In this document: positions 3,864 to 34,490 of the stretch, piece by piece
Layout of the letters: each line of letters begins with the position of its first letter
Position numbering within the stretch: position 1 is the stretch's first letter
Source of the DNA: Hysterangium stoloniferum
Lineage: Eukaryota; Basidiomycota; Agaricomycetes; Hysterangiales; Hysterangiaceae
Direction of reading: 5' to 3'
NCBI GenBank assembly: GCA_015178975.1
Contig: WHVD01000075.1
Coordinates: 310,001 to 374,000 of the forward strand
DNA: 64,000 nt
The notes under the pieces: generated by a model
The model's input: the letters and a program-made list of their open reading frames with translations, nothing else
Database searches by the model: none
What the model was told of the DNA's origin: nothing
Translations under genes and position numbers: made by a program

Positions 3864-3894
3864 TTAGGGGTTAGGGTTAGGGTTAGGGTTAGGG
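3864..3894 (+). repeat. short interstitial telomere-like (TTAGGG)n tract
   Basis: Five consecutive TTAGGG-type units (the first TTAGGGG) lie in the 148-bp gap between two oppositely oriented solo LTRs. TTAGGG is the telomere repeat of most filamentous fungi, including Agaricomycetes. The tract is too short to be a chromosome end and is embedded in unrelated sequence, so it is interstitial. Confidence 0.85.
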
Positions 3895-3973
3895 TCTTGC
3901 TATGCCTCTAAGTGTTAGGACAACACTAACAAGGCTACCAAAACACAAAGAGGAAACAAGAGATAAGACAAAG

Positions 3974-6334: not shown

Positions 6335-7222
6335 TTGTTTAATATGCCACCAAGAAGAAAAGTACACATACAGGAATCATTACCTGGACTGTCGACTCTT
6401 CATTCCCTGCTTACTTTGTATACCAGCCAGACACTCAGAAACCAGCCAGACACTCAGAAACCAGCCAGACACTCAGAAACCAGCCAGACACTCAGAAACC
6501 AGCCAGACACTCAGAAACCAGCCAGACACTCAGAAACCAGCCAGACACTCAGAAACCAGCCAGACACTCAGAAACCAGCCAGACACTCAGAAACCAGCCA
6601 GACACTCAGAAACCAGCCAGACACTCAGAAACCAGCCAGACACTCAGAAACCAGCCAGACACTCAGAAACCAGCCAGACACTCAGAAACCAGCCAGACAC
6701 TCAGAAACCAGCCAGACACTCAGAAACCAGCCAGACACTCAGAAACCAGCCAGATGCCATGGAAGAAGCCCATATCAAAGAAGTCCCAGAAAACCCAGAC
6801 AAATCAGAGCACGAGGACAAGTCCATGGCCCCCAACAAGGACAAAGGTGTCAAAAATCCTCCGTCTAACAATTGACCACCACTTTCAGACCCACCTCTGA
6901 GTTGTTAGCAATCACTTTAGAGAGATTGATGAATCACATGCTCGGAGAAGGCAATAAGAAGGATCCGGAACTTCCACAGTCAAAAGGGATTCCAGTGCCG
7001 GTGCACAAGGAGGTCTCCATGGGCACACAGTGCAAAGCAATGTGTGTCCGTCAGGGTGTTGGCGGCAGTGTCGGCCTTACATCAGCACCATCATTTGGCC
7101 ATGCCACACTACATTGCATCACGGTGCTGCTGCACAGCCATGTTCAGGACATAGGCAACACCGCCGTCATTATGTTGGCACCATTGCTTGGCCATACCAC
7201 CCACAAAGTGTGCAAATTGTGA
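6335..7222 (+). mobile_element. gag-like fossil of an LTR element
   Basis: Basic N-terminal reading frame (starting near MPPRRKVH) just after an alpha LTR, then a 19-bp tandem repeat, then a region reading ITLERLMNHML that is reminiscent of gypsy gag leaders. The placement after an LTR and the composition suggest a gag remnant of the alpha family; no pol follows. The element is broken and most of it is gone, because an inverted LTR remnant starts at about 7,250. I cannot confirm the family from the sequence alone. Confidence 0.45.
6422..6754 (+). repeat. 19-bp minisatellite, about 17.5 copies
   Basis: The unit ACCAGCCAGACACTCAGAA repeats almost perfectly from 6,422 to 6,754. The period of 19 is not a multiple of three, so the reading frame rotates and the translated repeat has a period of 19 residues. 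The near identity of the units points to recent expansion inside old sequence. Confidence 0.95.
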
Positions 7223-7806: not shown

Positions 7807-8496
7807 TTGCATTATGTAAGGTGCACGCTAAATTTGTGTGGAAATATTGCTGAAAGTTGCAAACCTTGTAGCTTGCTCAATAATTGACCAATTGTCTTGT
7901 AACTTCATATACTGTATGTATTTTACTACTATATATCTAGTATATTATGATGTTATAACTCCAAAATTTGACCTACAGCATGTTTCCCAAAATTGCAGTC
8001 CATTTGAGCTTGTGAACCAATTCATGAGCCAACAAATGTGTCACTCCCAATGAGCTTGTAATATGTTGTTTTATATGTATCTAGGTAGTAAAAAATGACA
8101 GCACCTGGCTTTTGCTGTCTAAATACCAGCTGCAAACCTGTATGAGGGTAGTTGTATGCATTTACTCAGCAACCTCACTCACATTAGCTCTGACCGCAAA
8201 AGCCAGGTGCTGTCATTTTTTACTACCTAGATACATGTAAAACAACATATTACAAGTTCATTGGGAGTGACACATCTGTTGGCTCATGAATTGGTTCACA
8301 AGCTCAAATGGACTGCAATTTTGGGAAACATGCTGTAGGTCAAATTTTGGAGTTATAACATCATAATATACTAGATATATAGTATTAAATATTAAGTTAC
8401 AAGACACTTGGTCAAGTACTGAGCAAGCTACGAGGTTTGCAACTTTCAGCAATATTTCTACACAAATCTAGTGTGTGCCTTACATATGTAATGCAA
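7807..8496. mobile_element. foldback (long terminal inverted repeat) element
   Basis: Two arms of about 300 bp, 7,807-8,115 and 8,196-8,496, are near-perfect reverse complements separated by an 80-bp centre. Both arms translate to nearly the same short peptide on opposite strands, but this is a consequence of the palindrome. The outer ends read TTGCATTA. No coding region lies inside, so it would be a non-autonomous foldback or MITE-like element or a single-copy palindrome. I find no convincing target duplication. Confidence 0.8.
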
Positions 8497-11640: not shown

Positions 11641-11681
11641 GCAACAACCGTACAGTTTAACAGTTAACCTGTATCTCCAAC

Positions 11682-12128
11682 CCAGTCATGACTGCGATAT
11701 GGGCTCGGCTTGGATGTGGTGTCCGTGGGCCTCCCTGGCATCGTAACAATAAGCGGTGGATCATGGTAACTCGTCTCTCCTTGACACTGAAATACACAGG
11801 ATGTCATACAGATTACATGATAATAACATTGTACTTTACTCACCAACTCGTCAACCCAAACCTCTACATGATTTGCAGACAATGGTATGTGCTGGCCATC
11901 ATCGGGTGCCAGGTAACATATATCATGCCTGGGTTCATTACAGCTCCATCGTTCTCGGAGTTTCAACCGGAATCTTTCCCTCATCCCCGTCTCAATGATC
12001 TGCTCCCGTTCCTCTGAGCTCAAGACACCTGGGGAAATCAAAGGTGGTAACTCCTCAACATCTTCGAGGAGGGCTTCAGTCGTTGCCGAATCGTGATTCC
12101 CCAGACTCGCCTCGTTGAAAGTAGACAT
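11682..12128 (-). pseudogene. 5' part of gene Y (copy A)
   Basis: The minus strand starts at ATG 12,128 with MSTFNEASLG and matches gene Y at 52,930-54,784 nearly residue for residue. Exon 1 (12,128-11,844, 285 nt) has the same length as in Y, and the same 57-nt intron (11,787-11,843, GTGAGT...CAG) is present. Homology to Y stops abruptly within exon 2 near 11,682, next to the gypsy fragment. Roughly three quarters of the gene is absent, so this is a truncated copy. Confidence 0.85.
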
Positions 12129-14213
12129 TGGTGGGTAGTAGTCGTACTTACATTAGAAGGGGGCGTTTATGCAGCAGCCAGTCGGAACAGCCCTGTGGCC
12201 GTGCCTACACAGGATTCACGGCAGTTCATCCCTCCCTTCGTAAACAAGGCGCCCTTACCCCTCCCTCAACCATATAGGCTCCAGTGTACCTAGCTACCTT
12301 ACTACTTTCTTACGCCTTTCGCTGAAGGCTCACAGCTTCCAATAATAGTTTGTCGATTGTCACCCCCGTAGAATAGTATTTCTAGTGTTCTTGAGCGTCA
12401 GAGTTGAAAGTAAAACAGCTTTTCTGTTATTCGAAAAGTGGCATTACCGTGTATAATGTAATTACAGTCCAGAGCGATGCTTCCCGCCTGCTGCCTTCAA
12501 GTTGGCGCTGTCAACCTCAGTCTTTATCAGGCGAGATTCGCGCTATCGTGCTTGCTCAGAGTCATCTCGTTGGGAGTAGACATTGGTGGACAGCAGTCGT
12601 ACTGATACCAGGAGGGGATGCAGCCTTTCTATGGCGCAGTCAGCCTCAGAGTAATTTCGAGCTATAGTCTTGTGGCCGTGCTTGTACAAGGATACACTGC
12701 CGCGGTGAACCCTTTTTGGAGCACCGCAAATGCTTCCCAAGGAAATAAAATTTCATAATGAATTTTGTTTTGTACCAAACGTTATTTAAAATGGATATTT
12801 TAGGTCATACAAAGATTTAAAGGTAACCTTTAAGTTGAATTTAACAACATTGTTTTTACGGCATAAAATGAGTCATTTTAAGACAACATTAAAAGGAAAC
12901 AATAGTTGAAAATTAGATAGACTTTGCAAGACTAAAACTATGGCATTTGATATCTAATTTAAGGAGTACCTAACTCCCATTCTTGAGGGTGTCCTTTTGT
13001 GTTGTGTTAATAAATTTAGTAATAAGATTTTAGAGTACATCAAAATGAGCTATTTAGTCAATGGATTTGAAATGTTTCTGAAATTTAGAATTTTGCACAC
13101 TACAAAATTCATCGTGCTCTACGTGTCACTCTGGAGATAATCTGTGTGAGAAGCCGCAAAACAAAGTTGCATGATTTGACTGTTACATGTTGAGCAGTGA
13201 GTGGTGAGCACAAATATGAGCAAAGGAATTACTGGCAGGTAACTACATATGAAGCAATAGCAGTGATACATATAGTAGTATTATACTAAACTTTGGGATT
13301 CATGGTCTCGTTAGCCAAAACCGTTGTGTTTGTGTCGACGATGAGTCTCAGAATATTTACAATTAGTTCTCAGATAGGTGCCCCCAAGTTCAATTATTGT
13401 AAGTGTGCAACCACTGGAGTAAGAAAATGCACTTGAATGAAGTGTTCTAGATGCTGTTATCCAGTGTCGAAAACACTGAAGGGTCAGCTCGCAGGACACG
13501 CAGAATACTGTAACTTCCCTACAATGGAATATAAATTTATAAAATCAAGCTAAATGGCGATATATCTATCGCACATTTTGTCGGTGCCGAAGCATGATTG
13601 GCTTCGGAGGCAGGTCAACCTTCGGTCTGTGCCAGGAACAGCTGCAAGTAAACCAAAATATTAATCCCTTACCCACATGTTCGGAACTGAACATCCAAAA
13701 TCGAAAATTATTAAGCCGTGGATTTTTTCACATAAACCTATAATCCTCGTTTTAAATCGACAAATCAATCTAGCAGCTTGCTTTTCGAGGGTTGCGGAAG
13801 GATTCTTTACGCTGCTCTGGACTGAAACTATCGTTTATTGGCTAGCGCCCATTGAAACGCATACTCGGTTCTCCCTGGGACGCCCAGAAATATTCATGCT
13901 TTCCTTGCATCGGCAGATGTAGCCCGGGATCGGGATTTCAAGGTCAAGGGCTGTTCGTCTTACCGGGAATTCTATCTGTGACCATTGACAGGAAAATTTC
14001 ATAATACAAACTCCCACGACCATGCCCAAGAACCAAGGACTGAACAGGCAATTGGGTGAATATAAGAAACCTTTTTAGATCCGCACTGTCTCTTGTCGCT
14101 GGTTCACGGCATATTATTATCCATCGTGATCTAGAAGAGGTGTCGACATTGGCATTTTCATGCAGGACAAAGTCTTCCCACGCTAGGATCCGCTGTACAT
14201 CTTTGCTTGCTTC
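12129..14213. other. duplicated intergenic segment between gene Y and gene X (copy A)
   Basis: This stretch corresponds base by base, with small indels, to about 54,785-56,935. It starts with the Y promoter side, in which a segment of about 120 bp (12,113-12,230) recurs in diverged form at 12,568-12,700. It then passes into AT-rich sequence (12,720-13,160) and a part near 13,840-14,030 that is open on the minus strand in copy C (56,477-56,830, 117 codons) but interrupted here. I see no assignable gene. Confidence 0.55.
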
Positions 14214-18570: not shown

Positions 18571-19313
18571 CTAGATCTTGAGAATCATACCCAGCAACAA
18601 CTTCGTCGCATGTGCGATCACCACACGTGGCACCCTGCTCGTAATCGTCGCTTGGACAACTGCACCATTGTAAATACGCAGCGACATCGTGTCAAACAAA
18701 CTCTTCAGCGCTGCAAGGGTGCGCACGAGATTGATGAACCTGCGGCTGCCGGACACGGACGGCGTGCAGGAAGCTGTTTAGAGACTTGCGAGACACAACC
18801 GTGAAACCGTGAACTCAGCTCGTCGCGATCGCGATCGCGCTTAGCGTGCGTGTTCTTGACTTTGGTTCTGCAGGATAGTGACAATAACCTGTACAGAAGG
18901 CTCAGAGTCAGGTTGCCCAACCATACTCGTAGAAGCGCCTGGTTTACACTGATTGCGGCCCCGCTGCGAGTTTCTCCACTGGCATGGGAAAAGGCGCTGC
19001 GTCCCGCTTCCCAAGATTGCATAGCCGGAACCAGTCTTGACTGACAGGTAGAAACGCCGTTTGTGGTGGGCGCGACGAAAGGCGAAGGGGCAGTAGGTAG
19101 TGCAGTGAAAATGATAGATAACGGTGTCGGGTTGATTTCCACTTGTACAGATCCCTCTCCTAAAATGAAAGAGTGATTTTGCAGTAAAATGATATTGGAC
19201 TGACGTTGGCGTTGGGGCATACAGTGACAATTGCAAAGGCCAGCATGGGAGCAGACATGCCCAGAATGATATAACCGCTTCAACCCACCATAACAAATGA
19301 TAAAAGGGTTAAA
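18571..19313 (-). pseudogene. gene M copy A, small membrane-protein-like gene
   Basis: The minus strand holds overlapping frames (18,705-19,340 and 18,841-19,296). The start MLWWVEAVISFWACLL is strongly hydrophobic and looks like a membrane segment. Copies B (50,110-50,960) and C (60,878-61,560) match. The frames overlap instead of following each other, so introns or frameshifts must be assumed, and I cannot give a reliable protein. The 5' end is cut at 19,313 by the gypsy junction. Confidence 0.4.
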
Positions 19314-22300
19314 TAATCTTCCGTGATCGTGCTGCTGCATTCTCCACGGACTCCCGAAAAGTCAACTACACACTGTCATATTTGTCAGGATCCGCGTTGA
19401 AATGGTTCAAACCGGCTTTTAGTGGAATATCCGAGGAAGAGCCGCTCTGGCTTGAAAATTGGGAGGCATTTGTTGAGGAGCTTGAAACCAACTTCGGCCC
19501 GTATGACCTGACAGGAGAAGCTGAGAATAGTCTCACAAATCTTCGTATGAAGGACACGCAGCGCATCACGGACTACATCGTCCAATTCAATAATCTTGCA
19601 GCTCGTTGTCAGTGGGGCGATCCCACTCTCCGCCACCAATTCTACGCCGGTCTGCCATTCCGCCTTAAAGACGAAGTCTTGAAAGGAGAAGATGGCAAGC
19701 CAAAAACCCTGTCCCGTATGTGCCTCAAAGCTCAAAACGTGGACGCACATTATTGGGAACGTCGTGTGGAAGTTGCCCGCGAGACATCCGCGGACAAAGT
19801 AAACAAGTCCAAGGACAAAAACAATAACAACAATTCATCAACCAGCAACCAGAATTCCACGCAATCTGACAAGAAGAACGATAAAAAGTCTTCAAACAAC
19901 AACAACAATAAGGACAATAAGGACAACAACAAGGGTCAATAGTCCGGCAAGCAAGCCGGAAAACCCAACCTCACAGGCAAACTCAGACCCGATGGCAAAT
20001 TGACCCCACAGGAAAGACAACATCATATGGACAATAACCTCTGTCTCTTGTGCGGGAAACCCAGTCATCAAGTCCCAGAATGTCCACTGACAAAAGCAAA
20101 CTCTGCAAAGGGTTGAATAGCTAAGACCTCCATGGAAACCCCGTCGAAGGACTAAACAACCCTGCAGACTCCGTGCGGGTTGGGGGTTGCATTGCCTCTC
20201 CGTGCATTCAAGAGTTTACCCGTCTCAACGCATCCACTCTTTCGCATTCTGATTCATTTTTCGTTAAACTTATGTCTAATATGATTCCAAAATTTGTTTT
20301 TTCAGCTCTTATAGATTCCGGCTCGACTCATTGTTTTTTAGATACAAAATTCACGCAAAAAGATTTGTTGTCAACTTATCCGATAAATCCCGTCGGCCTC
20401 TGCCTCTTCGATGGCACAAGTAATTCGGTTGTCACCCAAGCTTGTGATTTATCCATCTGTTTCCCGTATGGAACATCTCAATTGGTCACTTTCTATGTGA
20501 CCCAGTTAGACTCAAGTTGCTTGGTGGTCCTAGGACACAACTAGCTTACCCGCTACAATCCATTGATTGACTGGATAGCTAACAGTATAACATTCCAGAC
20601 TCCCACAGCAGCTGAGGAAACTGCGCCTGTCACAGCCTCTATGGCACCCATGGCCTTCCCGGCACCTGCAGTCTTGAGGACTCCTGTGATCCCTACAGCA
20701 CCCATAGCTTCCCCGGAACCCACGGCACCTCCGTCTATTTCTCTGATTAATGCTGCAGCTTTTGTTAGGGCTACAAAAATGGATGGGTCCCAGGTGTTCA
20801 CTATCAACTTAAAAATTGATGAAGCAACTGGATATTTTTCAACTCCGTTATCCACATCTGAGCAAGCCACTGACCTAGAAGGCGTCCCAGAGAAATATCA
20901 TGACTTTGTGGATGTTTTTAGCAAATGGAAAGCTGACCAGCTTCTGCCCCACAGAGAATACGACTTAAAAATTGATCTCGAAGATGGCGCCCAGCCACCC
21001 CTAGGACATATTTACCCACTCTCATCCACAGAACCTTCCACAATCTGCGATTTCCTGGATGAACATTTGTCCATAGGTTTTATCAGACCCTCAAAGTCTC
21101 CTTTTGGAGCACCTGTTCTGTTTGTCAAAAAAAAGAATGGATCCCTCAGACTATGTGTTGATTTTACAGGACTCAATGCTGTCACCAAAAAGGATAAGTA
21201 TCCACTTCCACTTATATCTGATCTGCTCAATGCCCCACAGAATGCCCGGATTTACACCAAAATAGATCTCAAACATGCCTATCACTTGGTCTGGATCTCC
21301 ACAGGTAACGAATGGAAAACCACTTTTAGAACCTGCTATGGGGCCTTTGAGTGGTTGGTGATGCCCTTTGGACTCACCAATGCTCTATCTGTTTTTCAGC
21401 ATTTTATCAACGACATTTTCTCTGACATGCTCAATGTATGTGTTATTGTTTAGTTGGATGACATTCTTATCTACTCCGAGAATCCTGTGGAACATGACAA
21501 ACAAGTCCATGAAGTTCTCTAGAGACTCAGACAACATGGTTTATTCGCGAATGGTAAAAAATATACTTTTGACATGGACTCCGTGGAATACCTGGGTTTC
21601 ATAATGGGACCTGACAGACTCTGCATGGACAAAACTAAAGTGTAAGTCATCAAAGATTGGCCTGAACCCCGAAAAGTTAAAGATATACAATCCTTCCTCG
21701 GCTTTGCCAATTTTTACAGGCAGTTTATCTGCAGATATTCTGACATCACGGTTCCCCTTACCCATCTTATGCGTAAGGATACTCCATGGAATTTTAACGA
21801 TAAGTGTCACAAAGCTTTCAATCTTTTAAAAAATTCTTTTTCTTCAGCTCCTATTCTGTCGCATTGGAAACCGGACTTCCCACTCATTGTTGAAATGGAC
21901 ACCTCAGACTATGTGCTTGGAGCCATTCTATCTATCCAGGACTCCAATGGAGAAGTCCACCCCATGGCTTTTCTGTCCTGGACTTTTACCTGAGCAGAGC
22001 TCAATTACGACATTCATGATAAGGAACTCCTGGCAATTTTTTCAGCTTTCAAAGTGTGGTGACACTACTTGGAAGGCTCGGGAACTCTGATTGATGTTGT
22101 AACAGATCACAAAAACCTGGAATACTTTTCTACTACCAAACTTTTGACCTATTGGCAGGCCCGCTGGTCTGAATATCTATCTGCTTTCAATATAATTATC
22201 TGTTTTTGACCCAGCCATCTTGGCAGCAAACCTGACGCTTTAACTAGATGATGGGACGTCTATCCTAAAGAGGGGAGCAACGACTATGCCACGGTAAACC

Positions 22301-24440
22301 TGCACAACCTGAAACCTATTTTCATGAATCAGCAACTTACCGCATCAGTCCGCACAACTTTCCTCATCAATCCCATTGTCCATGGAATTATCATTATGGA
22401 TATTGAGAAGTTACATCAAGATATTCTATTGGCAATTCCGCTAGACCCAATAACTAAAGCTCACCTTGACAATCCCATGGACCCTGATCAACCCCAGTGG
22501 TCTCTTGATCAGCATGGTTTCATTAGACTTGACGATTGGATCTATGTACCAGACTCCGATGGCCTCCACCTCAGGATCCTTCAGTACAAACATGATCATC
22601 CACTTTCAGGACATTTCAGGTACAACAAAACTCTATCATTAATAAGAAGAGAATATACTTGGCCCGGACTCTGTGGATTCGTTAAGCACTATTGTAAATC
22701 TTGCACTACTTGTCCCCACTCAAAATCTCAGCAACACAAGCCATACGGCCTTTTGAAACAACTCCCGGTACTGGAACACCCATGGAATTCTATCTCTATG
22801 GATTTCATTGTACACCTACCAGATTCTGAAGGCTTTTCCACCATTCTAGTCATTGTTGACAGATTCTCAAAACAAGGTATATTCATCCCTACACATGATA
22901 CAATTACATCTGTGCAGTTAGTGGAACTTTTTATTATCCATGTATTTTCCAAGCATGGAGTTCCGTCCCACATAACTTCTGATCAAGGATCAGAGTTCGT
23001 ATCTCACTTCTTTAGATCCCTTGGGAAATCCTTGGACATGAAACTACATTTCACATCCAGACATCACCCAGAAGGTGACGGACAAACCGAACACATCAAT
23101 CAGACATTGGAACAATATCTCCACATATATTGCAATTATCAACAGGACAATTGGAAATCCTTGTTACCACTTGCAGAATTTGCTTGCAACAATGCACCCT
23201 CGCCACTACTGGCATTTCCCCATTCTTTGCAAATAAAGGATATAATCCAAATATTACAGTACATCCAGAATGCAATCTCACCTCTGCTCATGCTCAAAAG
23301 TTCACCATGGACCTCCACGAGCTCCACGAGGAACTCCAGACTGCAATAAAGTCCACCCAAGAGCAATACCAACATTCAGTGGACAAACACCAGATCCCGC
23401 CACCAAACTTCAAGATTGGCGACTGTGTTTTTGTCAAAGCTCAATTCTTCTGGACTACCCATCCATCAAAAAAGCTTGCTGAAAAATATTTAGGTCCGTT
23501 TGAAATAATCGCACAAGTAGGTTCAGTCTCTTGGACCCTACGGCTTCTGGATAGCATGCACGTGGTACACCCAGTATTTCATGTTTCTATGCTAGAACCT
23601 TGTACTACTAACACTATTCCGGATCACGTGCAATCTCTGCCCCCTCCGGTCATTATTGACAGAGAACCCGAGTTTGAAATCTCATAGATTTTAGATTCGA
23701 AAATTGACAAGCATCCACGCACTTGTAAACTGCTTTACTTGGTCAAGTGGGTGGGTTACCAGGGCACCGATGAAGAAACCTTATGGATTTTGGCCACGGA
23801 ACTCGGTAATGCCATGGAAATCGTTACTGACTTTCATACAGCTTAGCCACTCAAACCCGGACCACTATCCTCTGACCACACTCCATGGGCTCCGTGTTAT
23901 GTTTGGACTCATTTTCATTATTCCTTGTCGCCCTATGTCTCTCTTTGCTTTTACAGGTTCTGACATGATTTCAAGTCCTTAAGTGGATTTTCCGTGGACT
24001 TTGATTTTTATGTTTTTCACGCTTTACTTTTATTTTCAAAAAAATATTTTATTTTATTTCAATCTACATTTATGGGGCTATGTTTTTGCCCAACCTCAGC
24101 CATCTCCTGAGGAAGCTCCGCTACCTCCACGGGCACCCCATCCTCATCCAACCTGGCGTCCTCAGAACTCCTGGCTTGCAGCTCCTTATAAATATATCTG
24201 CCGAACTCCACAAGGAACTTCCAAAACTCCAAGCAGAGTCCATGGAGCTCATTCGCCACTACAATTTGGACCTTGTTGCTTTTTCGGAGCAACTCATTCT
24301 GGGCCTCAATGCCCTCAGCGATCCACCCAAAACTCTTTATACTCTTCTGTCCCTGCTGCTCACTTTCTTTTTCTTTCTTGTTTACCTCAATCTTTTATTG
24401 ATAGTTAAAAAAGTTGACATTCTTTTAAATTCACGATAAT
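19313..24440 (+). mobile_element. Ty3/gypsy chromovirus fossil, 5'-truncated
   Basis: Parts in order: gag (19,320-19,940) with a CCHC zinc knuckle near 20,040-20,090; protease with a DSG motif near 20,320; reverse transcriptase (about 20,940-21,800); RNase H (about 21,830-22,200); integrase with the zinc-binding part near 22,660-22,720 and a core to about 23,300; a chromodomain at the C-terminus (about 23,700-23,850), which marks it as a chromovirus. Broken in several places (roughly half a dozen breaks). The 5' LTR and gag start are absent, and I find no matching 3' LTR before 24,650. An additional short frame at 24,080-24,439 follows the chromodomain. Most of pol is still readable, so it is moderately young compared with the 10.1-11.6 kb copy. 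Confidence 0.9.
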
Positions 24441-24769
24441 ACATAATATACTAAGTAATGATGGGTGTCCCGCAGCATACTTGCCGGAATCGCATACAAT
24501 ACTGTTTGTGGATATTATTAGTTTAATGGAGTGGCTGGTGGTCTTCTTGCGGGATAAGCCAACCCTCGAGTCGGTTCACTTTTGATGCCATCAGATCTCC
24601 GCGAGAACATCGGAGTGGTACCAATCATCATATAAAGTAAAGTTGTACGGTGGGTGGTGGGCGTTTTTAGGCGCCGCAGGCCCTGTTCGTGAGGGCGCGG
24701 AGTGCCCGAACCTGGAGGTGTGGGAGAGTGTGACTAATATTGACGCCCAAAGCTCCTTATTACTCAGCG

Positions 24770-25010
24770 CGGGAGCAAATGCGGAGGCTTTTTGCCATTC
24801 GCGGAAGCATTTCTGCGCTCGCGGGAGTATTTTTAGTGCCGCGGGAGTATTTGTGACTAACGCGGAAGTATTTATGCAAGCGCGAGAGTATTTTGTCACG
24901 TGCGCGGAGATATTTTATGACGTGCGGAGGTATTTTTACATGCGCGGGAGTATTATATCAGGTGCGCGGAGGTATTTTGCAATGCCGCGGCAGTATTGTT
25001 ATACTGCATC
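24770..25010 (+). repeat. irregular GCGCGGGAGTATTT repeats
   Basis: About nine imperfect units of 25-33 bp sharing GCGGGAGTATTT or GCGGAGGTATTTT. They form the second module of satellite unit 1 and are almost absent from unit 2, which keeps only GCGCGGGAGCAAAT near 28,507. Confidence 0.7.
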
Positions 25011-25205
25011 CACCGTGCACCCATCCGCCCGCACCCATCCACGGCGCACCCATCCACGGCGCACCTGCTCCCATCCACCGTGCACCCATCCACCCGCTCC
25101 CATCCACGGCGCACCCATCCGCCCGCACCCATCCAAGGCGCACCCACTCCCATTCACGGCGCACCCACTCCCATTCACGGCGCGCCCTCTCCCATTCACG
25201 GCGCG
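25010..25205 (+). repeat. C-rich minisatellite (CACCCATCCACGGCG type)
   Basis: Tandem 14-15-bp units of the form CACCCATCCACGGCG, alternating with longer CCGCACCCATC and CCGCTCCCATC variants. Related arrays occupy 28,590-28,720 (unit 2) and 31,420-31,795 (unit 3). Confidence 0.85.
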
Positions 25206-26790
25206 TCCTCTCTCTTTCCTCCAGGTGATGTGTGTACTCTTTCCTTCTCCCTCCGTCCTGCGCTAATCCGCCTCCTCTCTCTTTCCTCCAGCGAGTGTGT
25301 GTACTGTTTCTTTCTCTCTCCGTCCTCCTCTGATTGACCTCTTCTCTCTTTTGTCCAGCTGGTGCGTGTACCATTTCCTCTCTCTTTGTCCTCTGATCAT
25401 CCTCCTCTCTTTCCTCCAGGTGTGTGTACCATTTCCTTCTCTCTCCATCCTCCTCTCATTGGGACCCTCTCTCTTTCCTCCAGCCGGTGTGTCTACCATT
25501 TCCTTCTTCCTCTGTCCTGCGCTGATTTGCCTCCTCTCTCTTTCCTCCAGCCGGTGCGCGTTCCATTTCCCTCTCTCTCTGTCCTCTTCTGATTGGCCCC
25601 CTCTCTTTCTCCAGCCGGTGCGCATTCCCTTTCCCCTCTCTCTTTGTCCTCCTCTGATTGTCCCCCTTTCCCTCTTTCTCTGTCCTCTTCTGATTGGCCC
25701 CTCTCTTTCCTCCAGCCGGTGCGCATTCCCTTTCCCCTCTCTTTGTCCTCCTCTGATTGTCCCCCTCTCTTTCCTACAGCCGGTGCGTCTACCATTTCCT
25801 TCTTCCTCTGTCCTGTGCTGATTTACCTCCCCTCTCTTTCCTCCAGCCGGTGTGTGTACTGTTTCTTTCTCCCTTTGTCCTCCAGCCGGTGGGTGTACCG
25901 TTTCTTTCTCCCTTTGTCCTCCTCTGATCGGCCTCCTCTCTCTTTCCTCCAGGAGGTGTGTGTACCATTTCCTTCTCTCTTCATCCTCCTCTAATTGGCC
26001 TCCTCTCTCTTTCCTCCAGCCGGTGCATGTACCATTTCCTTCTCCATTTGTCCTCTCTCTTTCCTCCAGGAGGTGCGTGTACCGTTTCCTTCTCTCTTTG
26101 TCCTCTGATCGGCCTCCTCTCTCTTTCCTCCAGCCTCTGCGTGTACCGTTTCCTTCTCCCTTCGTCCTCTCTCTTTCCTCCAGGAGGTGTGTGTACCGTT
26201 TCCTTCTCTCTTCGTCCTCTGATCGGCCTCCTCTCTCTTTCCTCCAGCCTCCGTGTGTACCGTTTCCTTCTCCCTTCGTCCTCTCTCTTTCCTCCAGGAG
26301 GTGTGTGTACCGTTTCCTTCTCTCTTCATTCTCTGATCGGCCTCCTCTCTCTTTCCTCCAGCCACTGCCTGTACCGTTTCCTTCTCCCTTCGTCCTCTCT
26401 CTTTTCTCCAGGAGGTCCATGTCCCCTTTCCTCCTCTCTCCTTCCCCCAGCGAGTGCGTGTACTATTTCATTCTCTCTCCATCCTGCTCTGATCTGCCCT
26501 CTCTCTTCCCTCCAGGTGGTTTGTGTACCCTTTCCTTCTCTCTTCATCCTGCCCTCATTGGCCTCCATTCTCTTTCCTCCAGCCAGTGCGTGTTCCTCTG
26601 ATTGGCCTACTCTCTCTTTCCTAAAGTATGTCTACCATTTCCTTCTTCCACCATCCTCCTCTGACCAGCCCTCTCTTTCCTCCAGGTGGTGTGTGTACCC
26701 TTTCTTTAGTGAGTGTGTGTACTGTTTCCTTCTCTCTTTGTCCAGCTGCTGTGTGTACTGTTTCCTTCTTCCTCCGTCCCCATCTGATTG
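25205..26790 (+). repeat. tandem array of intron-like ~64-bp units (unit 1)
   Basis: Roughly two dozen units. Each has GTG(C/T)GTGTACC, then a pyrimidine-rich run, CTGAT (sometimes CTAAT), about 20 more pyrimidine-rich bases and TTTCCTCCAG. The next GTG follows after 0 or 3 nt (for example CAG-GAG-GTG, CAG-CCG-GTG). These are the positions and words of a fungal 5' splice site, branch point and 3' splice site, at a normal basidiomycete intron length. The long minus-strand frames here are explained by the purine-rich composition of that strand. Confidence 0.85.
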
Positions 26791-26799
26791 GCCTCAATA

Positions 26800-26945
26800 A
26801 AATCAGAATAATTCAAATAAAATATAATAAGTGAATATAAAATGTTTTAAAATAAAATAAATTGAAATGAAAAACAATAAAATAAAATAAAATTCAATAA
26901 ATCAAAATAAAATGCTAAATCAAAATAAATAAATTGAGTGACCAC
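26800..26945 (+). repeat. AATAAAAT-rich module (unit 1)
   Basis: A-rich low-complexity stretch built on AAAATAAAAT and AATCAAAATAAAAT, ending in AAATAAATTGAGTGACCACAGTAATTA. The same stretch with the same end (CTGACCACATTAATTAGTTG) closes the intron-like array of unit 2 at 29,680-29,860; the counterpart in unit 3 is 33,285-33,480. Confidence 0.85.
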
Positions 26946-26979
26946 AGTAATTACTTGCAGTTGAGAGTCAATTTAACCA

Positions 26980-28225
26980 CTCTTTCCATTTGTAACCATT
27001 GTTTCCATTTGTAACCTGTGTCTCCTTTTGTAACCATTGTGTCCTTTTGTGGCTGTGGCTTCCATTTGTGACTGATGTTTGCTTTTCTATTGTTTTCCAT
27101 TTTTGGAACACTTTCCGTTCTTGGAACACTTTCCATTCTTAGAACACTTTCCACTCTTAGAACACTTTCCGTTCTTAGAACACTTTCCATTCTTTAAATG
27201 GCTTTAGTTCTAAAACAGCAAAGCCCCAGATATACTTAGAAGTTATGTAATGGTTGTTCCCTTTTGTAATGGTTGATTCCTTTGTAACCGTTGATTCCTT
27301 TGTAACCGTTGATTTCTTTGTAACCATTGATTTCTTTTGTAACCGTTGTAACCATTGATTCCTTTGTAACTGTTGATTCCTTTGTAACCGTTGATTCCTT
27401 TGTAACCATTGATTCCTTTGTAACCGTTGATTCCTTTGTAACCGTTGATTCCTTTGTAACCGTTGATTCCTTTGTAACCGTTGATTTCTTTTGTAACCGT
27501 TGATTTCTTTTGTAACCTTTGATTTCTTTTGTAACCTTTGATTTCTTTTGTAACCGTTGATTTCTTTGTAACCTTTGTATCCTTCCTTTGTAACTACTGT
27601 TTTCTATGTTACTGTTGTTTCCTTTATAACACTTTCCATTCCCTGAACACTTTCTGTCTAACATGACTTTCCATTCTAATGTGACTTTCTGTTCTAATGC
27701 AACTTTCTCTAATGCGACTTTCCATTCTAACATGACTTTCCATTCTAAATGACTTTCCGTTCTAATGCAACTTTCCTTTCTAAATGACTTTCCGTTCTAA
27801 TGCAACTTTCCTTTCTAAAGTGACTTTCTGCTCTAACACGACTTTCTGTTCTAACATGACTTTCTGTTCTAATGCAACTTTCCTTTCTAATGCAACTTTC
27901 CATTCTAATGTGACTTTCCATTCCAAAGTGACTTTCCATTCTAAAGTGACTTTCCATTCTAAATGACTTTCCGTTCTAAAGTGACTTTCCATTCTAAATG
28001 ACTTTCCGTTCTAATGTGACTTTCCATTCTAACATGACTTTCCGTTCTAAAGTGACTTTCCATTCTAAATGACTTTCCGTTCTAAAGTGACTTTCCGTTC
28101 TAAAGTGACTTTCCGTTCTAAAGTGACTTTCCGTTCTAAAGTGACTTTCCGTTCTAAAGTGACTTTCCGTTCTAAAGTGACTTTCCGTTCTAAAGTGACT
28201 TTCCGTTCTAACAGCTTCCCTTTTA
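26980..28225 (+). repeat. series of 18-bp arrays (unit 1)
   Basis: Successive arrays with the same 18-bp period and different sequence: CCATTTGTAACCATTGTT type (26,985-27,090), TTCTTAGAACACTTTCCG type (27,105-27,195), TTGATTCCTTTGTAACCG type (27,255-27,590) and TTCCGTTCTAAAGTGACT type (27,640-28,210). Because 18 is six codons, the frames stay open on both strands; this does not by itself show coding. Confidence 0.9.
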
Positions 28226-28234
28226 GAACAATGG

Positions 28235-28375
28235 GCCTCAGAAATACTTAAGAGTCATGGATGCGGGGGGGTTTGGGGGGCGAAGCCCCCCAACAAGCCG
28301 GAGCCCGCAGTGAAGTTGTGGGGCAGGTCACGAAGTGACCGCCCCGCAGCGTAGCAAGGGTTCCCAGGCTTGTCA
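28235..28375 (+). repeat. GC-rich hairpin tail (unit 1)
   Basis: Follows AGAAATACTTAAGAGT. It contains the perfect hairpin GGGGGGCGAAGCCCCCC and the longer one GCGGTCACTTCGTGACC-type pair near 28,325-28,345, then GCAGCGTAGCAAGGGTTCCC. An almost identical copy ends unit 2 at 30,912-31,050, and a related stretch with GGGGGCTTGCCCCC lies at 34,495-34,575. Confidence 0.9.
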
Positions 28376-28854
28376 AATAAGTGAAAGGAGCATGGTGGGT
28401 CCGTGGGCGTTGTTAGGCGCCGCAGGCCGTGTTCGTGAGGGCGCGGAGCGCCCGAACCCTGAGGTGTGGGAGAGTATGACTCAGCTTAGCGCCCCTAGCT
28501 TAGTCAGCGCGGGAGCAAATCACCTGTGCCTGTTCCTGTCACGGGCATTGCCAGGTGTGACGCATGCCGCGTTGTTTGCGCGCGAACGCGCACCCACTCC
28601 CATCCGCCGCGCACCCATCCACGACACATCCACGACGCACTCATCCACCGCGCACCCATCCACCGCGTACCCATCCATGACGCACCCACTCCCATCCACC
28701 GCGCACACACTCCCATCCATGGGCACATGCCTGCCCGCCCATTCGGGCACAAACCGGCAAAGCGCGTTCCGTTTGCCAACGCGCGCATGCGCCGCGCCTG
28801 TTCGCAACGCGCTGTGCCCATTTGTGCCCGATTGGGCGTGCACCCTGCTCTGAT

Positions 28855-29670
28855 CGGCCCCTCCAGTTGGTGCGTGTCCCCTTTCCTTCTCTCTTCATCC
28901 TCCTCTGATCGTCCTCATCTCTTTCCTCCAGGATGTGTGTCCCCTTTCCTTCTCTTTGTCCGTCTGTCTTTCCTCCAGTTGGTGCGTGTCCCCTTTTCTT
29001 CTCTCTTCGTCCTCCTCTGATCGCCTCCTCTCTCTTTCCTCCAGGACGTGTGTGTACCTTTTCTTTCTCTCTTCGTCCTCCACTCATGGGCCTCCTCTCT
29101 TTCCTCCAGGAAGTGCATGTACCCTTTCCTTCTCTCTTCGTCCTCCTCTGATGGCCTCCTCTCTTTCCTCCAGCAAGTGCGTGTCCCCTTTCCTCCTCTC
29201 TTTGTTCTCCTCTGATCGTCCTCCTCTCCCTTTCCTCCAACGAGTGCGTGTATCATTTCCTTCACCTTTGTCCTCCTCTGATTGTCCTCATCTCTTTCCT
29301 CCAGCCAGTGTGTGTACCATTTCCTTCACTCTCCGTCCTGCTCTGAATGGGCCCCTCTCTCTTTCCTCCAGATGGTGCGTGTACCATTTCTTTCTCTCTC
29401 CATCCTGCTCTCATTGGCCTCTCTTTCCTCCAGGTGGTGCATGTACCATTTCCTTCTTCCTCCATCCTGCTCTGATCAGCCCCATCTCTCTTTCTTCCAG
29501 GGTGCCTGTGCTGTTTCCTTCTCTCTTTGTCCTCTGATTGACCTCCTCTCTCTTTCCTCCAATGAGTGTGTGTACTGTTTCCTTCTCTCTTCCTCCCCAT
29601 CTGATTGGCCTCCTGTCTGTCCTCCCGGAGGTGCGTGTCCCCTTTCCTTCTCTTTTTGTCCTCTGATCAC
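28855..29670 (+). repeat. tandem array of intron-like ~64-bp units (unit 2)
   Basis: About a dozen units of the same type as 25,205-26,790. Spacers between CAG and the next GTG are 3 nt (GAT, TTG, GAC, GAA, CAA) or 0. The donor-like word is often GTGCGTGTCCCC here, compared with GTGTGTGTACC in unit 1. Confidence 0.85.
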
Positions 29671-29869
29671 AGCAATCCTAAAATAAAAATAATATACATT
29701 AAATAAAAATACAATGGAATAAATTAAAATAAAATGCAGTAAATTAAAGTGAAATTCAATAAATTAAAATAAAATACAATAAATCAAAATAAAATACATG
29801 AATCAAAATGAAATAAGTAAATCAAAATAAATAAATCAGCTGACCACATTAATTAGTTGACTGTCAATT

Positions 29870-30905
29870 CAACCATTGATCCATTTGTAACCATTGATCC
29901 ATTTGTAACCATTGTTCCATTTGTAACCATTGTTCCATTTGTAACCATTGTTCCTTTTGTAACCATTGTTCCTTTTGTAACTGTTATTTCCATTCTCTAA
30001 ACAGTTTCTGTTCTTTACACAGTTTCTGTTCTTTACACAGTTTCTGTTCTTTACACAGTTTCTGTTCTTTACACAGTTTCTGTTCTTTACACAGTTTCTG
30101 TTCTTTACACAGTTTCTGTTCTTTACACAGTTTCTGTTCTTTACACAGTTTCTGTTCTTTACACAGTTTCTGTTCTTTACACAGTTTCTGTTCTTTACAC
30201 AGTTTCTGTTCTTTACACAGTTTCTGTTCTTTACACAGTTTCTGTTCTTTACACAGTTTCTGTTCTTTACACAGTTTCTGTTCTTTACACAGTTTCTGTT
30301 CTTTACACAGTTTCCGTTCTTTACACAGTTTCCATTCTTTACACAGTTTCCGTTCTTTACACAGTTTCCATTCTTTACACAGTTTCCGTTCTTTACACAG
30401 TTTCCACAATTTTTGTTCTCTAAACACTTTCCCTTCTTTGCATGGTTTCCACAATTTCTGTCTCTGTTCTACAAATACTTTCCATTCTACAAACACTTTC
30501 CGTTCTACAAATACTTTCCATTCTACAAACACTTTCCGTTCTACAAATACTTTCCATTCTACAAATACTTTCCATTCTACAAATACTTTCCGTTCTACAA
30601 ACACTTCTGTTCTCTGAACACTTTCCTTTCTCTGAACACTTTCCGTTCTCTGAACACTTTCCTTTCTCTGAACACTTTCCGTTCTCTGAACACTTTCCGT
30701 TCTCTGTCCGTTCTCTGAACACTTTCCGTTCTCTGTCCGTTCTCTGAACACTTTCCGTTCTCTGTCCGTTCTCTGAACACTTTCCGTTCTCTGTCCGTTC
30801 TCTGAACACTTTCCGTTCTCTGTCCGTTCTCTGAACACTTTCCGTTCTCTGAACACTTTCCGTTCTCTGAACACTTTCCGTTCTCTGAACACTTTCCGTT
30901 CAAAC
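29870..30905 (+). repeat. series of 18-bp arrays (unit 2)
   Basis: Begins with CCATTTGTAACCATTGTT (29,875-29,990), then about 22 copies of TTCTGTTCTTTACACAGT (30,000-30,400), then TTCCATTCTACAAACACT (30,465-30,605) and TTCCGTTCTCTGAACACT (30,605-30,900). All have a period of 18 bp, with a short stretch of 30-bp higher-order units (TTCTCTGTCCG insertions, 30,690-30,840). Confidence 0.92.
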
Positions 30906-30911
30906 AATAAG

Positions 30912-31050
30912 TCTCAGAAATACTTAAGAGTTGTCGACGCGGGGGGGTTTGGGGGGCGAAGCCCCCCAACAAGCTGGAGCCCGCAGCGAAGTTGTGGGGC
31001 CGGTCGCAAAGTGACCGCCCCGCAGCGTAGCAAGGGTTCCTAAGCTTGTC
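30912..31050 (+). repeat. GC-rich hairpin tail (unit 2)
   Basis: Near-identical to 28,235-28,375: GGGGGGCGAAGCCCCCC hairpin, then a second hairpin around GGTCGCAAAGTGACC and GCAGCGTAGCAAGGGTTCC. It is preceded by AGAAATACTTAAGAGT in both units. Confidence 0.9.
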
Positions 31051-31067
31051 ATAGAAGTTAATTCGCG

Positions 31068-33480
31068 TCGGTGGGTCCATGGGCGTCGTTGCTGAGTCAT
31101 AAAATAGAAGCACTGCGAGCGAAGCGAGCCTTAGTTTCCCACGGTCTAATCTGCGAGCGAAGCGAGCCTTAGGGCTTCCCACGGTGTTATGTCACCCTGT
31201 CACTTTGTTCAAGATTTCTCAACCGGTGTGTACCATTTCTGTCTCTTCGTCCTCCTCTCTCTCTTTTCTCCAGGAGGTGTGTACTTTTTCTTTCTCTCTT
31301 CGTCCTCCTCTGATCAACCCTCTCTCTTTCCTCCATCACTTGCGTGCGTGTCCCGTCTCCTTCTCGCTCTAACCTCCTCTGACCAGCTTCGTTTTTCTTC
31401 CTCCAGTGCGTACGTGTGTGCATCCACCGCGCACCTTTCCACCGCGCACCTGCTGCCATCCACCGCGCACCAACTCCCATCCACGGGCACCCATCCACCG
31501 CGCACCCGCTCCCATCCATCGCGCACCATCCACCGTGCACCCATCCACCGCGCACCCATCCAGCCGCACCCATCTGCCGCGTACCCATCCACCGCGCACC
31601 CATCCACTGGCTCTCATCCACCGCGCACCCATCCACTGGCTCTCATCCACCGCGCACCCATCAATCTGCACCCATCGACGACGCACCCATCCATGGTGCA
31701 CCCATCCAACCGCTCCCATCCACCGCGCACCCATTCACGGTGCACCCATCCAGCCGCTCCAATTCACGGCGCACCCACTCCCATTCACGGCGCACCCTCT
31801 CTCTTTCCTCCAGGTGATGTGTGTACTCTTTCCTTCTCCCTCCGTCCTGTGCTAATCCGCCTCCTCTCTCTTTCCTCCAGTGAGTGTGTGTACCGTTTCC
31901 TTCTCTCTCCGTCCTCCTCTGATTTGACCTCTTCTCTCTTTTGTCCAGCCGGTGCGTGTACCATTTCCTCTTTCTTAGTCCTCTGATCATCCTCCTCTCT
32001 TTCCTCCAGGTCGTGTGTGTAGTGTTTCCTTCTCTCTTCGTCCTCCGAGTGTCCTCCTCTCTTTCCTCCAGCCGGTGTGTGTACCGTTTCCTTCTCTCTC
32101 TGTCCTCCTCTAATCAGCCTCCTCACTCTTTCCTCCAGGAGGTGCGTGCACCCTGTCCTTCTCTCTTCTTCCTCCTCTGATTGGCCCCCTCTCTTTCCTC
32201 CAGCCGGTGTGTGTTCCTTTTCCCCCTCTCTCTGTCCTCCTCTGAATATCCCTCTCTTTCCTCCAGCCGGGGTGCGTTCCTTTTCCCCCTTTCTCTATCC
32301 TCCTGTGATTGGCCACACCCCTTTTTCCTCCAACCGGTACATGTTCTCTTTCCCTCTCTATCCTCTTCTGATCAGCCACCTCTCTTTCCTCCAGCCGGTG
32401 CATGTTCCTTTTCCTTCTCTCTCCGTCCTTCTGTGATTGGCCTCCTCTTTCCTCCAGCCGGTGTGTGTTCCCTTTCCCTCTCTCTCTGTCCTCTTCTGAT
32501 TGGCCCCCCTCTCTTTCCACTGACCAGTGCGCATTCCCTTTCCTTCCCTCTCTGTCCTCCTCTAATCAGCCTCCTCACTCTTTCCTCCAGGAGGTGCGTG
32601 CCCCCTTTCCTTCTCTCTTCAGCCTCTTCTGATTGTCTTCCTCTCTTTCCTCCAGGGATGTCTGTGTCCCCTTTCCTTCTCTCTTTGCCCCCCTCCGTCT
32701 TTCCCCCAGACGGTATGTGTCCCCTTTCCTTCTCTCTCCATCCTTCTCTGATTGGCCTCCTCTCTTTCCCACAGTCGGTGCGCGTTCCCTTTCCCTCTCT
32801 CTCTGTCCTCTTCTGATCGGCCCCCTCTCTTTCCTCTTCTGATCGGCCCCCTCTCTTTCCTCTTCTGATCGGCCCCCTCTCTTTCCTCTTCTGATCGGCC
32901 CCCTCTCTTTCCTCAAGCCGGTGCGCATTCCTTTTCCCCTCCTCTCTTTGTCCTCCTCTGATTGGCCTCCTCTTTCCTCCAGCCGGTGTGTGTTCCCTTT
33001 CCCTCTCTCTCTGTCCTCTTCTGATCGGCCCCCCTCTCTTTCCTCCAGCCAGTGCGTGTTCCTTTTCCCCTTCTCTCTGTCCTCCTTTGATCGGCCTCCT
33101 CTTTCCTCCAGTTGGTGTGTATATCCTTTCCTGCTCTCTCCGTCCTTTGCTGATTGAACTGCTCTTTTTCCTCCGGTTGGTGTCTCCTTTCCTTCTCTCT
33201 CCATCCTGCTCTGATCGGGCTCCTCTTTCCTCCAGGAAGTGTATGTCCCCTTTCCTTCTCTCTGTCCTGCTCCCACTGCTTTTTTGAACCAAAATAAAAT
33301 GTTTGACAATAAAATAAAATAGAATAGAATTAACCGAAATAAAATACAGTAAATGACAATAAAATGCTTGAAAATAAAAGATAATCGGAAAAATAAAAAT
33401 AAAAAATTCAAAAATAGAATAAATTAAATCAAAATAAATTGGGAAATTTCCAATCAAAGCAAATAATTGCAACCAATTCA
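31068..33480 (+). repeat. composite satellite unit 3, divergent
   Basis: Opens with the short head GGTGGGTCCATGGGCGTCGTTG, then two copies of GCGAGCGAAGCGAGCCTTAG (31,108 and 31,152), three intron-like units (31,215-31,400), a C-rich array (31,420-31,795), a second intron-like array (31,795-33,285) and an A-rich module (33,285-33,480). The 18-bp arrays are missing, and unrelated AT-rich DNA follows until a hairpin-tail relic at 34,495. Confidence 0.75.
31795..33285 (+). repeat. tandem array of intron-like ~64-bp units (unit 3)
   Basis: About two dozen units of the GTGYGTGT ... CTGAT ... TTTCCTCCAG type, the first several nearly matching those at 25,228-25,430. In the second half the word after the donor is TTCCTTTTCCCC instead of ACCGTTTCC. 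A local sub-array of four 30-bp CTGATCGGCCCCCTCTCTTTC repeats, with no CAG, lies at 32,810-32,915. Confidence 0.85.
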
Positions 33481-34490
33481 AAAACCAATCACTTTGACTA
33501 CTTGAATCAAAAATGAAGTACCAACTGACCAAATGCAAGCAAACTGTGAAATTGCTCAATTCTCCATATGTATATTCAATGTCTAAAGTTAAGTAGTCAA
33601 ATAAGTCACAGGGTAAATCTTTAAAATTAGTTGGATTGGATCTGTGCACTCCTGTCTTCCCACATAGACAGTTGTATGTTGGTGTTTCAAGAGAAAAAAT
33701 TTGGAGAAGAGTGAAAATCATACTCCATAACACTCATATGACTGAATATAGTGTTTAAGGATGTTATTACTGACCCATAAGTATGTATAAAAAGACTCAG
33801 GTGGAAGGAATAGATGAGAAATGTGGCATGGAACAACTAGGTTCAGAGGCTAAGGTCAAAAAGGGTCATAAGTCTCAATCTGGCAGACACTAGCAAAAGG
33901 ATTAAGCAGTATGAACAACACTTAAAATGTAAATGAAGGTATTATTGCATACACTTCTAAACATGAGAGTGGAATTCTAAATCAGTATTCTATGTAAGTC
34001 AATATTCAAACTGAAGCATAGTAGTGTACATAATGGAGTTTTATACTAAAGTAAATGGAAGCACAGGGCTGAAAGTGGAGATTTGGTATTTACAGAACAA
34101 AGGAAATCAGGAAGCAGAACAGGATATTAAGAAGAGGAATACAAGACAACAGAAAAAAGATGACTATTCTGAGATGGCAAATGATATGATGAAGTGATGC
34201 AAGAAATAATAGAATGTCATTAGAACAGAACTTAGATAGAGTGGCTGGAAAAGGAAATCATTAAGTAGGTGTGTTATTGAGTATCACCATGCTAGAGGAC
34301 AGTATATGTAGGTTGAAAATACACATAGCGGTCTGAACAATGTTATAAGTAGAATACAAGACAATAATTTATACTAAATGATTCAATGACAGATGAATGA
34401 GTGGAATGGAAGGAAAGTGGGGTATGAGTATGGGGGAGAATAAATGGGAAGCTGGAATGTAGAAGTCCTCAAGATGACATGGTCACGGAT
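33481..34490. other. AT-rich stretch without gene
   Basis: About 1 kb of AT-rich sequence. A long minus-strand frame that begins at 33,733 runs back into the satellite and is not convincing. I see no domain, repeat family or RNA gene. Confidence 0.45.

Follow-up and report, generated by a model that had tools for sequence, protein, structure and literature searches.

The window analysed here is a stretch of 64,000 nucleotides (C528:310001-374000) from the 111 Mb assembly of the fungus Hysterangium stoloniferum. It contains a plus-strand satellite in which intron-like units are stacked head to tail, and arrays of the same unit occur in a gene family of the same fungus. The window repeats look like worn copies of an intron chain whose well-kept counterparts lie in that gene family.

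The satellite of the window and its composite element

The intron-like units lie in three arrays and one short fragment, all on the plus strand. Array 1 (25205..26790) consists of ~67-bp units, each made of a 64-bp intron-like part and 3 nt; it is partly decayed and contains a 114-bp higher-order repeat. Array 2 occupies 28855..29664, a short fragment of unit array lies at 31215..31400, and array 3, which is also partly decayed, occupies 31795..33285. A preliminary description of this DNA had reported blocks of units of about 64 bp at these places, with donor, branch, polypyrimidine and CAG motifs and with 0 or 3 nt between neighbours. Blocks of ~64-67 bp units with the motifs described were confirmed there. 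Window units were parsed by wrap-around alignment to a 67-column unit (NNN + 64) and filtered by length and identity. Seventy-one of the 122 parsed pieces passed the filter, while the remainder are fragments or other satellites bridged by the alignment; a unit profile matched the window 62 times. The spacer between AG and GT is 3 nt in 65 of the 71 units, 0 nt in four, and 1 or 2 nt in two, in an alignment that is itself biased toward 3-nt spacers. The exact junction TTTCCTCCAG-NNN-GTGYGTGTACC has 570 matches in the genome and the reversed control has none; thus, the junction motifs are not due to chance.

Conservation of the splice signals was scored in five columns set beforehand (G+1, T+2, branch A, A-2 and G-1), and mismatch in these was compared with mismatch in the other intron columns. 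In the window, mismatch is 51/355 (14.4%) in the splice columns and 754/3479 (21.7%) elsewhere, and random sets of five columns were equally conserved in 14% of draws (P 0.14). GT is intact in 77.5% of the window units and AG in 76.1%, and all splice signals are intact in 39/71. Several units have lost both the donor and the branch motif, namely the 50-bp units at 26134, 26248 and 26362. The earlier statement that the signals are kept while the bases between them vary was therefore not confirmed for the window, although it holds strongly for the sister arrays in genes described below.

The arrays are part of a larger element. We fetched 20 loci of up to 10 kb, which are the best matches and not a random sample. 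Eighteen of these loci, like the window, have the unit array (block A) inside a composite element with the largely fixed block order G-B-A-C-D-E-F; the remaining two are gene arrays. The composite is partial at several loci, and its block order deviates in L022 and L023. Block B consists of CATCCACC/GCGCACC repeats, block C is AT-rich, block D carries TTTGTAACC, block E carries CTTTCCGTTC, and block F, at 28201..28373 (plus strand) in the window, reads GGGGGGCGAAGCCCCCC ... GGGTTCC..GCTTGT. Several dispersed copies have an F block at both ends, and 8/12 right ends among the composite ends listed share GCTTGT and then run into differing flanks. The exact F core occurs 70 times in the genome. 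The element thus has defined ends, a largely constant internal order and unrelated sites of residence, as a dispersed composite repeat does.

Three copies of this element in tandem, all on the plus strand, make up the window satellite. Copy 1 (24628..28373) has the order G-B-A-C-D-E-F in the block map; its start and the end of F were located by aligning copies. Copy 2 spans 28374..31053 in the block map. Copy 3 (31054..33568 in the block map) ends in the AT-rich block and has tail matches in L010, L018 and L028; its similarity to other composite copies stops near 33568. The triplets between the units of array 2 run TTG GAT TTG GAC GAA CAA CGA CCA ATG GTG, and the same order was found again in other genomic copies. 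Many composite copies share triplet order, which indicates that they descend from one lineage. Composite copies span a range from nearly intact to decayed, and the window lies toward the decayed end. A short relic at C35:911200-911800 (L047) holds about three array units in otherwise different DNA.

Arrays of predicted one-codon exons in a gene family

Unit arrays without composite blocks lie at loci L024 and L025 on C124. A search with exon 1 of the gene found there gave eight places: six on C124, one on C46 and one on C442. The composite motifs B, D, E, F and G are absent from all eight gene loci. The layout of the family is a 128-codon exon (MPGT...ALMK or ...GLIK), a second exon of 25-26 codons, the array, a terminal intron and a terminal exon. 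The terminal exon encodes a conserved C-terminal sequence, P(F/L)(H/Y/R)DI..(M/I)GLLPAY...NIRYCFF, and is open in phase 0 in 6/6 genes. The longest array is that of g344, the BU17DRAFT_85984 locus (C124:343823 on), with 100 scored units (one 109-bp stretch counted as two). It is followed by g46 on C46 (48 scored units), g445 (37), g529 on C124 (31), and g397 (on C124) and g327 with 18 each. The broken member g442 has 22 scored units, and the broken or truncated g434 keeps a trace of the array only. For the six genes from g344 to g46, 265 pieces were parsed and 13 dropped, namely 11 partial ends and two full-length defective units of g46. The exons of g344, g529, g46 and g397 are intact, and unit lengths vary freely in the gene arrays.

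Over its full length, exon 1 shares 82-88% identity between g344 and the C124 paralogs. Its open frame of 128 codons had a probability of about 0.02 in a simple neutral simulation. The deposited model P0001 reads exon 1 (ALMK) / exon 2 (FHTKG...INMGK) / E, with phase 0 at the first three-base exon, and P0004 contains the first of these two splices. A protein search matched four proteins, all from H. stoloniferum, with no homolog from another species. P0001 and P0004 have no Pfam domain up to E 1. An AlphaFold2 model of P0001 was helical, with a mean pLDDT of 44.5, and was set aside as unusable.

The predicted exons of the arrays are nearly all three bases long. A raw recount of 248 acceptor-to-donor junctions in the six genes gave an exon of exactly 3 nt in 238. 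Five more read 1 nt because an overlapping GTGTG donor comes first, and 3 nt with the next donor. Three junctions of g46 have 9, 12 and 15 nt, each a multiple of three, and the last two junctions are a broken donor in g445 and the terminal exon. The unit alignment gives 251/252 exons of 3 nt and hides the longer g46 exons, because it favours 3. The family would therefore have the structure of a micro-exon gene, with many internal coding exons far below 51 nt and in multiples of three; this likeness concerns structure and not descent.

The splice signals of the gene arrays are nearly invariant. When the six genes were pooled (252 units), the five most conserved of the 64 unit columns were exactly the five splice columns, and the same result was obtained for g46 alone. 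Splice-column mismatch is 2/500 in g344 (8.2% elsewhere), 0/155 in g529 (9.3%), 4/90 in g397 (11.9%), 3/185 in g445 (10.1%), 0/90 in g327 (5.2%) and 0/240 in the scored units of g46 (17.5%; two defective units dropped). It rises to 14/110 in the degenerate g442 (20.2% elsewhere). Constraint on GT, branch A and AG above the rest of the unit, the mark of spliceosomal introns, is thus found in the pooled gene arrays and not in the window arrays alone. With respect to the proposal that the satellite is a head-to-tail stack of introns, this supports such an origin, given also the phase 0 of the exons that flank the gene arrays, while the signals of the window itself are hardly favoured. The roles suggested there for the satellite, as a sink for splicing factors or as a source of transcripts disarmed by their own splicing, find no backing in these data, with just 39/71 window units intact.

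The same data bear on the reading that a plain minisatellite resembling introns entered the composite element and one gene family, with nothing being spliced. The unit is a pyrimidine-rich tandem repeat that is abundant genome-wide, as the exact junctions show, and in the window its splice signals are only weakly favoured, as such a repeat would have it. However, a minisatellite does not account for the splice columns being the most conserved in gene arrays, for phase 0 on either side of the array, or for the homology of the unit to an ordinary intron of the same gene, and we regard this reading as very improbable. Three other candidates were rejected. An inverted CCAAT box was considered behind CTGATTGG, but CTGATCGG is common and the base that follows CTGAT varies, with a column entropy above 1 bit in g529, g445, g46 and the composites, so ATTGG is not the kept part. 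A satellite coding on the minus strand was considered because long minus-strand frames are present, but a period of 64-67 bp is not divisible by three. A structural RNA was sought, with no Rfam match at gathering scores.

In contrast to the introns, the triplets between them are hypervariable. In the six genes, triplet entropy is 1.4-2.0 bits per site, compared with a mean intron entropy of 0.1-0.6. In codon-level alignment of paralogs, 0/15 pairs beat the best of 60 shuffles. Stop triplets in phase 0 number 1/251 in the genes, against 10.5 expected from column shuffling. The lack of triplet conservation among paralogs would also be seen if the arrays were spliced but the three-base exons were mostly skipped, either from the first donor to the last acceptor or in random subsets, so that the triplets hardly reach the protein. 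Such small exons are hard to recognise, and the frame is kept whatever number of them is skipped. Skipping, however, has no need for near-invariant internal donors, branch A and acceptors, and it leaves unexplained why phase-0 stops are rare, although that test is confounded; we consider it unlikely. Two further comparisons, of stop triplets in genes (1/251) with those in composites, window and g442 (25/686; Fisher P 0.006) and of TGA with CAA (P 0.03), were given little weight, since the triplet order common to composite copies makes these copies non-independent.

The triplets and the introns also differ in their apparent history. In g344 (25 pairs) and g327 (28 pairs), units with 0-1 differences in 54 intron sites nevertheless differ at 1.8-2.3 of the 3 codon sites, so the codons change much faster than the introns or do not share their ancestry. 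The closest pairs in g445 (two pairs, no differences) and g46 (three pairs, 0-1 differences) share their triplets. At C40:88900-92400 (L043), which has ~25 scored units and the terminal exon of the family with no exon 1 recognised upstream, a unit block with the triplets GTC TTC CCG CGA .. is present twice. This indicates that unit blocks are duplicated along with their codons.

A star-shaped family of introns with codons near saturation between them, as in g344 and g327, would be expected if an introner-like intron had been placed again and again between the codons of an existing exon, instead of intron and codon being duplicated in tandem. Diversifying selection or homogenisation of the introns only gives the same pattern, however, and near-identical pairs may arise by chance in a star phylogeny. 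Repeated insertion would have to hit every codon boundary over ~100 codons, which is implausible without a targeting mechanism, and the window and the 47 loci read showed no isolated unit in any other gene. The triplets shared by the closest g445 and g46 pairs and the duplicated block on C40 also fit poorly with it. Repeated insertion is rather unlikely.

We consider it probable that these are genes with single-codon exons, that the composite element captured such an array, and that the window holds decayed copies of it. Several observations weigh against this view. In single genes the column test is not significant for g397 (P 0.13) and g327 (P 0.08). Among the members, g397 has one unit without donor and two without branch A; in g445 a single triplet reads TGA, and a donor and an acceptor have been lost at one place each; g327 retains little of exon 1 and is joined in frame; g434 and g442 are broken; and the two defective g46 units fell out at the identity filter. 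None of the deposited models P0001-P0004 includes the array: P0001 continues past the first one-codon exon into the intron that follows, P0004 enters the intron preceding that exon, and P0002 and P0003 stop earlier. In exon 1, dN is about equal to dS (0.31/0.335 for the g344-g46 pair), so no purifying selection is visible there. Phase 1 is likewise free of stop triplets (0, with 7.7 expected), which means that the null overstates the expectation and that the stop-triplet test gives weak support. In the composites outside the window, splice-column mismatch is 325/3130 (10.4%) against 20.5% elsewhere, so that the splice columns are weakly better kept than average (P 0.04), and some single copies keep them well: 3.6% vs 19.7% in L027, 4.2 vs 16.2 in L028 and 5.0 vs 18.0 in L014. 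Since these three keep their signals, "decayed" suits the window better than every composite copy. The ratio in exon 1 fits either rapid evolution or weak constraint, and assembly error may be present in the long arrays.

Origin and spread of the array

The unit is related to introns of the gene itself. In the letters of g434, the intron before the array shows homology to the unit, with a score of 57.5 compared with 10.8 +/- 6.3 for shuffled sequence; the terminal intron of g344 resembles the unit as well (score 30.7, shuffled 3.6 +/- 5.5). The array would probably have grown from such an ordinary intron of the gene.

The terminal exon links the gene family to the composite element. The terminal-exon region occurs at 11 places in the genome, and three of those beyond the gene loci were retrieved. 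These are the C40 copy and the copies on C113 (L044) and C122 (L045). By eye, L044 and L045 each have array units and the terminal exon of the gene joined to the AT-rich block of the composite, and L044 additionally carries the 5' part of the composite. Splice-column mismatch is 7/125 in the C40 copy (12.1% elsewhere), 3/45 in the C113 copy (17.9%) and 2/20 in the C122 copy (17.3%). In the window, ACAGCAATCCTAAAA at 29669..29683 (plus strand) matches 14/15 letters, by eye, of ACAGCAATCCTGAAA, which lies just after the stop codon of the parent gene in g529, g397 and g327. It is possibly the scar of a lost terminal exon. Further copies of the terminal-exon region lie at C356:609180-609401 and C518:459023-459188.

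From these joined copies, the direction of transfer was likely from the gene to the composite, with loss of the exon later. The opposite order, in which the satellite came first and part of it was taken up by the gene family, agrees with two facts: composite units are more diverged (20.5%, compared with 5-17.5% in genes) and more numerous, as only 107/570 exact junctions lie inside the eight gene loci. It is distinctly unlikely, however, given that L044 and L045 hold the gene's terminal intron region and terminal exon within composite sequence, that the unit and the intron preceding the array are homologous, and that the gene loci lack the B, D, E, F and G motifs of the composite. The preliminary description had also suggested that the satellite could be a source of introner-like elements. 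This was not supported: a unit profile run over the window and 47 loci, a small part of the 111 Mb, detected no unit standing alone in an unrelated gene. Its sole isolated match, covered by two overlapping loci, belongs to g434, a truncated member of the family.

The structure, spacing, phase and conservation pattern of the arrays and the variability of their codons can be read directly from the DNA, whereas we infer transcription, splicing and the inclusion of each triplet. The units would be removed as ordinary short fungal introns, with a GTGYGT donor, a CTGAY branch, a pyrimidine tract and CAG. Short fungal introns are commonly recognised across the intron, and very small exons would be tolerable if removal runs from upstream. 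Removal would probably start at the 5' end, so that each codon joins an upstream exon that is already long, and the mature protein would gain up to ~100 residues in a row, each encoded by an exon of its own. A dispersed composite element would then have captured the array together with the terminal exon, lost that exon in most of the copies read, and spread; three tandem copies would have formed the window satellite.

More tentatively, we propose that the array generates diversity in a hypervariable tract codon by codon: the constant introns may serve as a scaffold for recombination and splicing, while the lone codons diversify singly by being added, dropped or swapped, and such an array escaped into a mobile satellite. 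This hints at a way for a mycorrhizal fungus to vary a protein one residue at a time. Amplification of an intron into an array followed by escape into a mobile satellite is suggested too, and the growth of a satellite, the gain of introns and the hypervariability of a protein would come together at a single locus. If spliced as predicted, the genes would be extreme in exon size and intron density, with one codon per exon about a hundred times running, and would let the handling of minimal exons by the spliceosome be tested in a natural, countable setting. They also carry a warning for annotation, since of the four deposited models found, none extends beyond the 5' part of its locus.

Comparable systems and other features of the window

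Genes with many very small exons are known elsewhere. In the micro-exon genes of Schistosoma mansoni, as described in PMC10526429, many short exons have 3-81 bp (a minimum of 6 bp is also given) and are mostly multiples of three. Introns there range from 100 to ~5000 bp in length, and 15 bp is the size of most short exons, whereas the H. stoloniferum arrays have near-identical introns of ~64 nt and nearly all internal exons are one codon. The likeness is one of structure, and homology is not claimed. Aphid bicycle and megacycle genes are fast-evolving putative effectors with many microexons, more than 100 in megacycle (PMC9168663). Since megacycle encodes about 2000 aa, its average exon measures tens of bases, unlike the one-codon exons predicted here. 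Bicycle internal exons are nearly all in phase 2, while the H. stoloniferum family is in phase 0, and the available part of that paper mentions no repeated intron sequence for these genes, in contrast to the arrays described here. A single 3-bp exon is known from Drosophila homothorax (PMC7392893).

Repeated introns have also been described. In Cryptococcus CNN00420, an intron-containing repeat of ~107 nt (exon ends and the whole intron) was expanded, giving identical introns with EST (expressed sequence tag) support (PMC2395259). With six introns and longer exonic parts, that gene differs from the H. stoloniferum family, in which introns number up to about a hundred and the predicted exons have one codon. 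A single host gene, SNHG14 (SNORD115/116), contains runs of 29 and 48 consecutive introns (PMC11608373); it is a snoRNA (small nucleolar RNA) host gene without a one-codon coding tract, and the likeness lies in the tandem introns. Introners, or introner-like elements, are near-identical introns present in many copies (PMC9860276, PMC4457414). They enter many genes, while the H. stoloniferum copies stand head to tail in one gene family and in the composite element.

H. stoloniferum is reported to be ectomycorrhizal (PMC7550596). SP7-like effectors of arbuscular mycorrhizal fungi are tandem-repeat proteins of symbionts with a family-defining exon-intron structure; their repeats are in the protein, and the part of PMC11333574 that deals with them describes no one-codon exon array. 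Neither runs of one-codon exons nor this gene family were reported among the literature matches listed, which does not prove that such a report is absent.

Other features of the window lie outside the composite satellite. A gypsy-like element occupies 19313-24439, directly upstream of this satellite, and has its gag, reverse transcriptase and integrase matches spread over separate frames. An interstitial telomere-like repeat of 4.7 perfect copies of GGGTTA lies at 3868-3895, and a 19-bp repeat with 17.5 perfect copies, open in three plus-strand frames, at 6422-6754. By eye, a long inverted repeat of about 8030-8460 resembles a MITE (miniature inverted-repeat transposable element). Related open frames (MSTFNEASLGNHDSATTEALLEDVEELPPL...) occur in two copies on the minus strand, at 11664-12152 and 54077-54808, with no Pfam match at E 0.001, and these possibly represent another repeat family.

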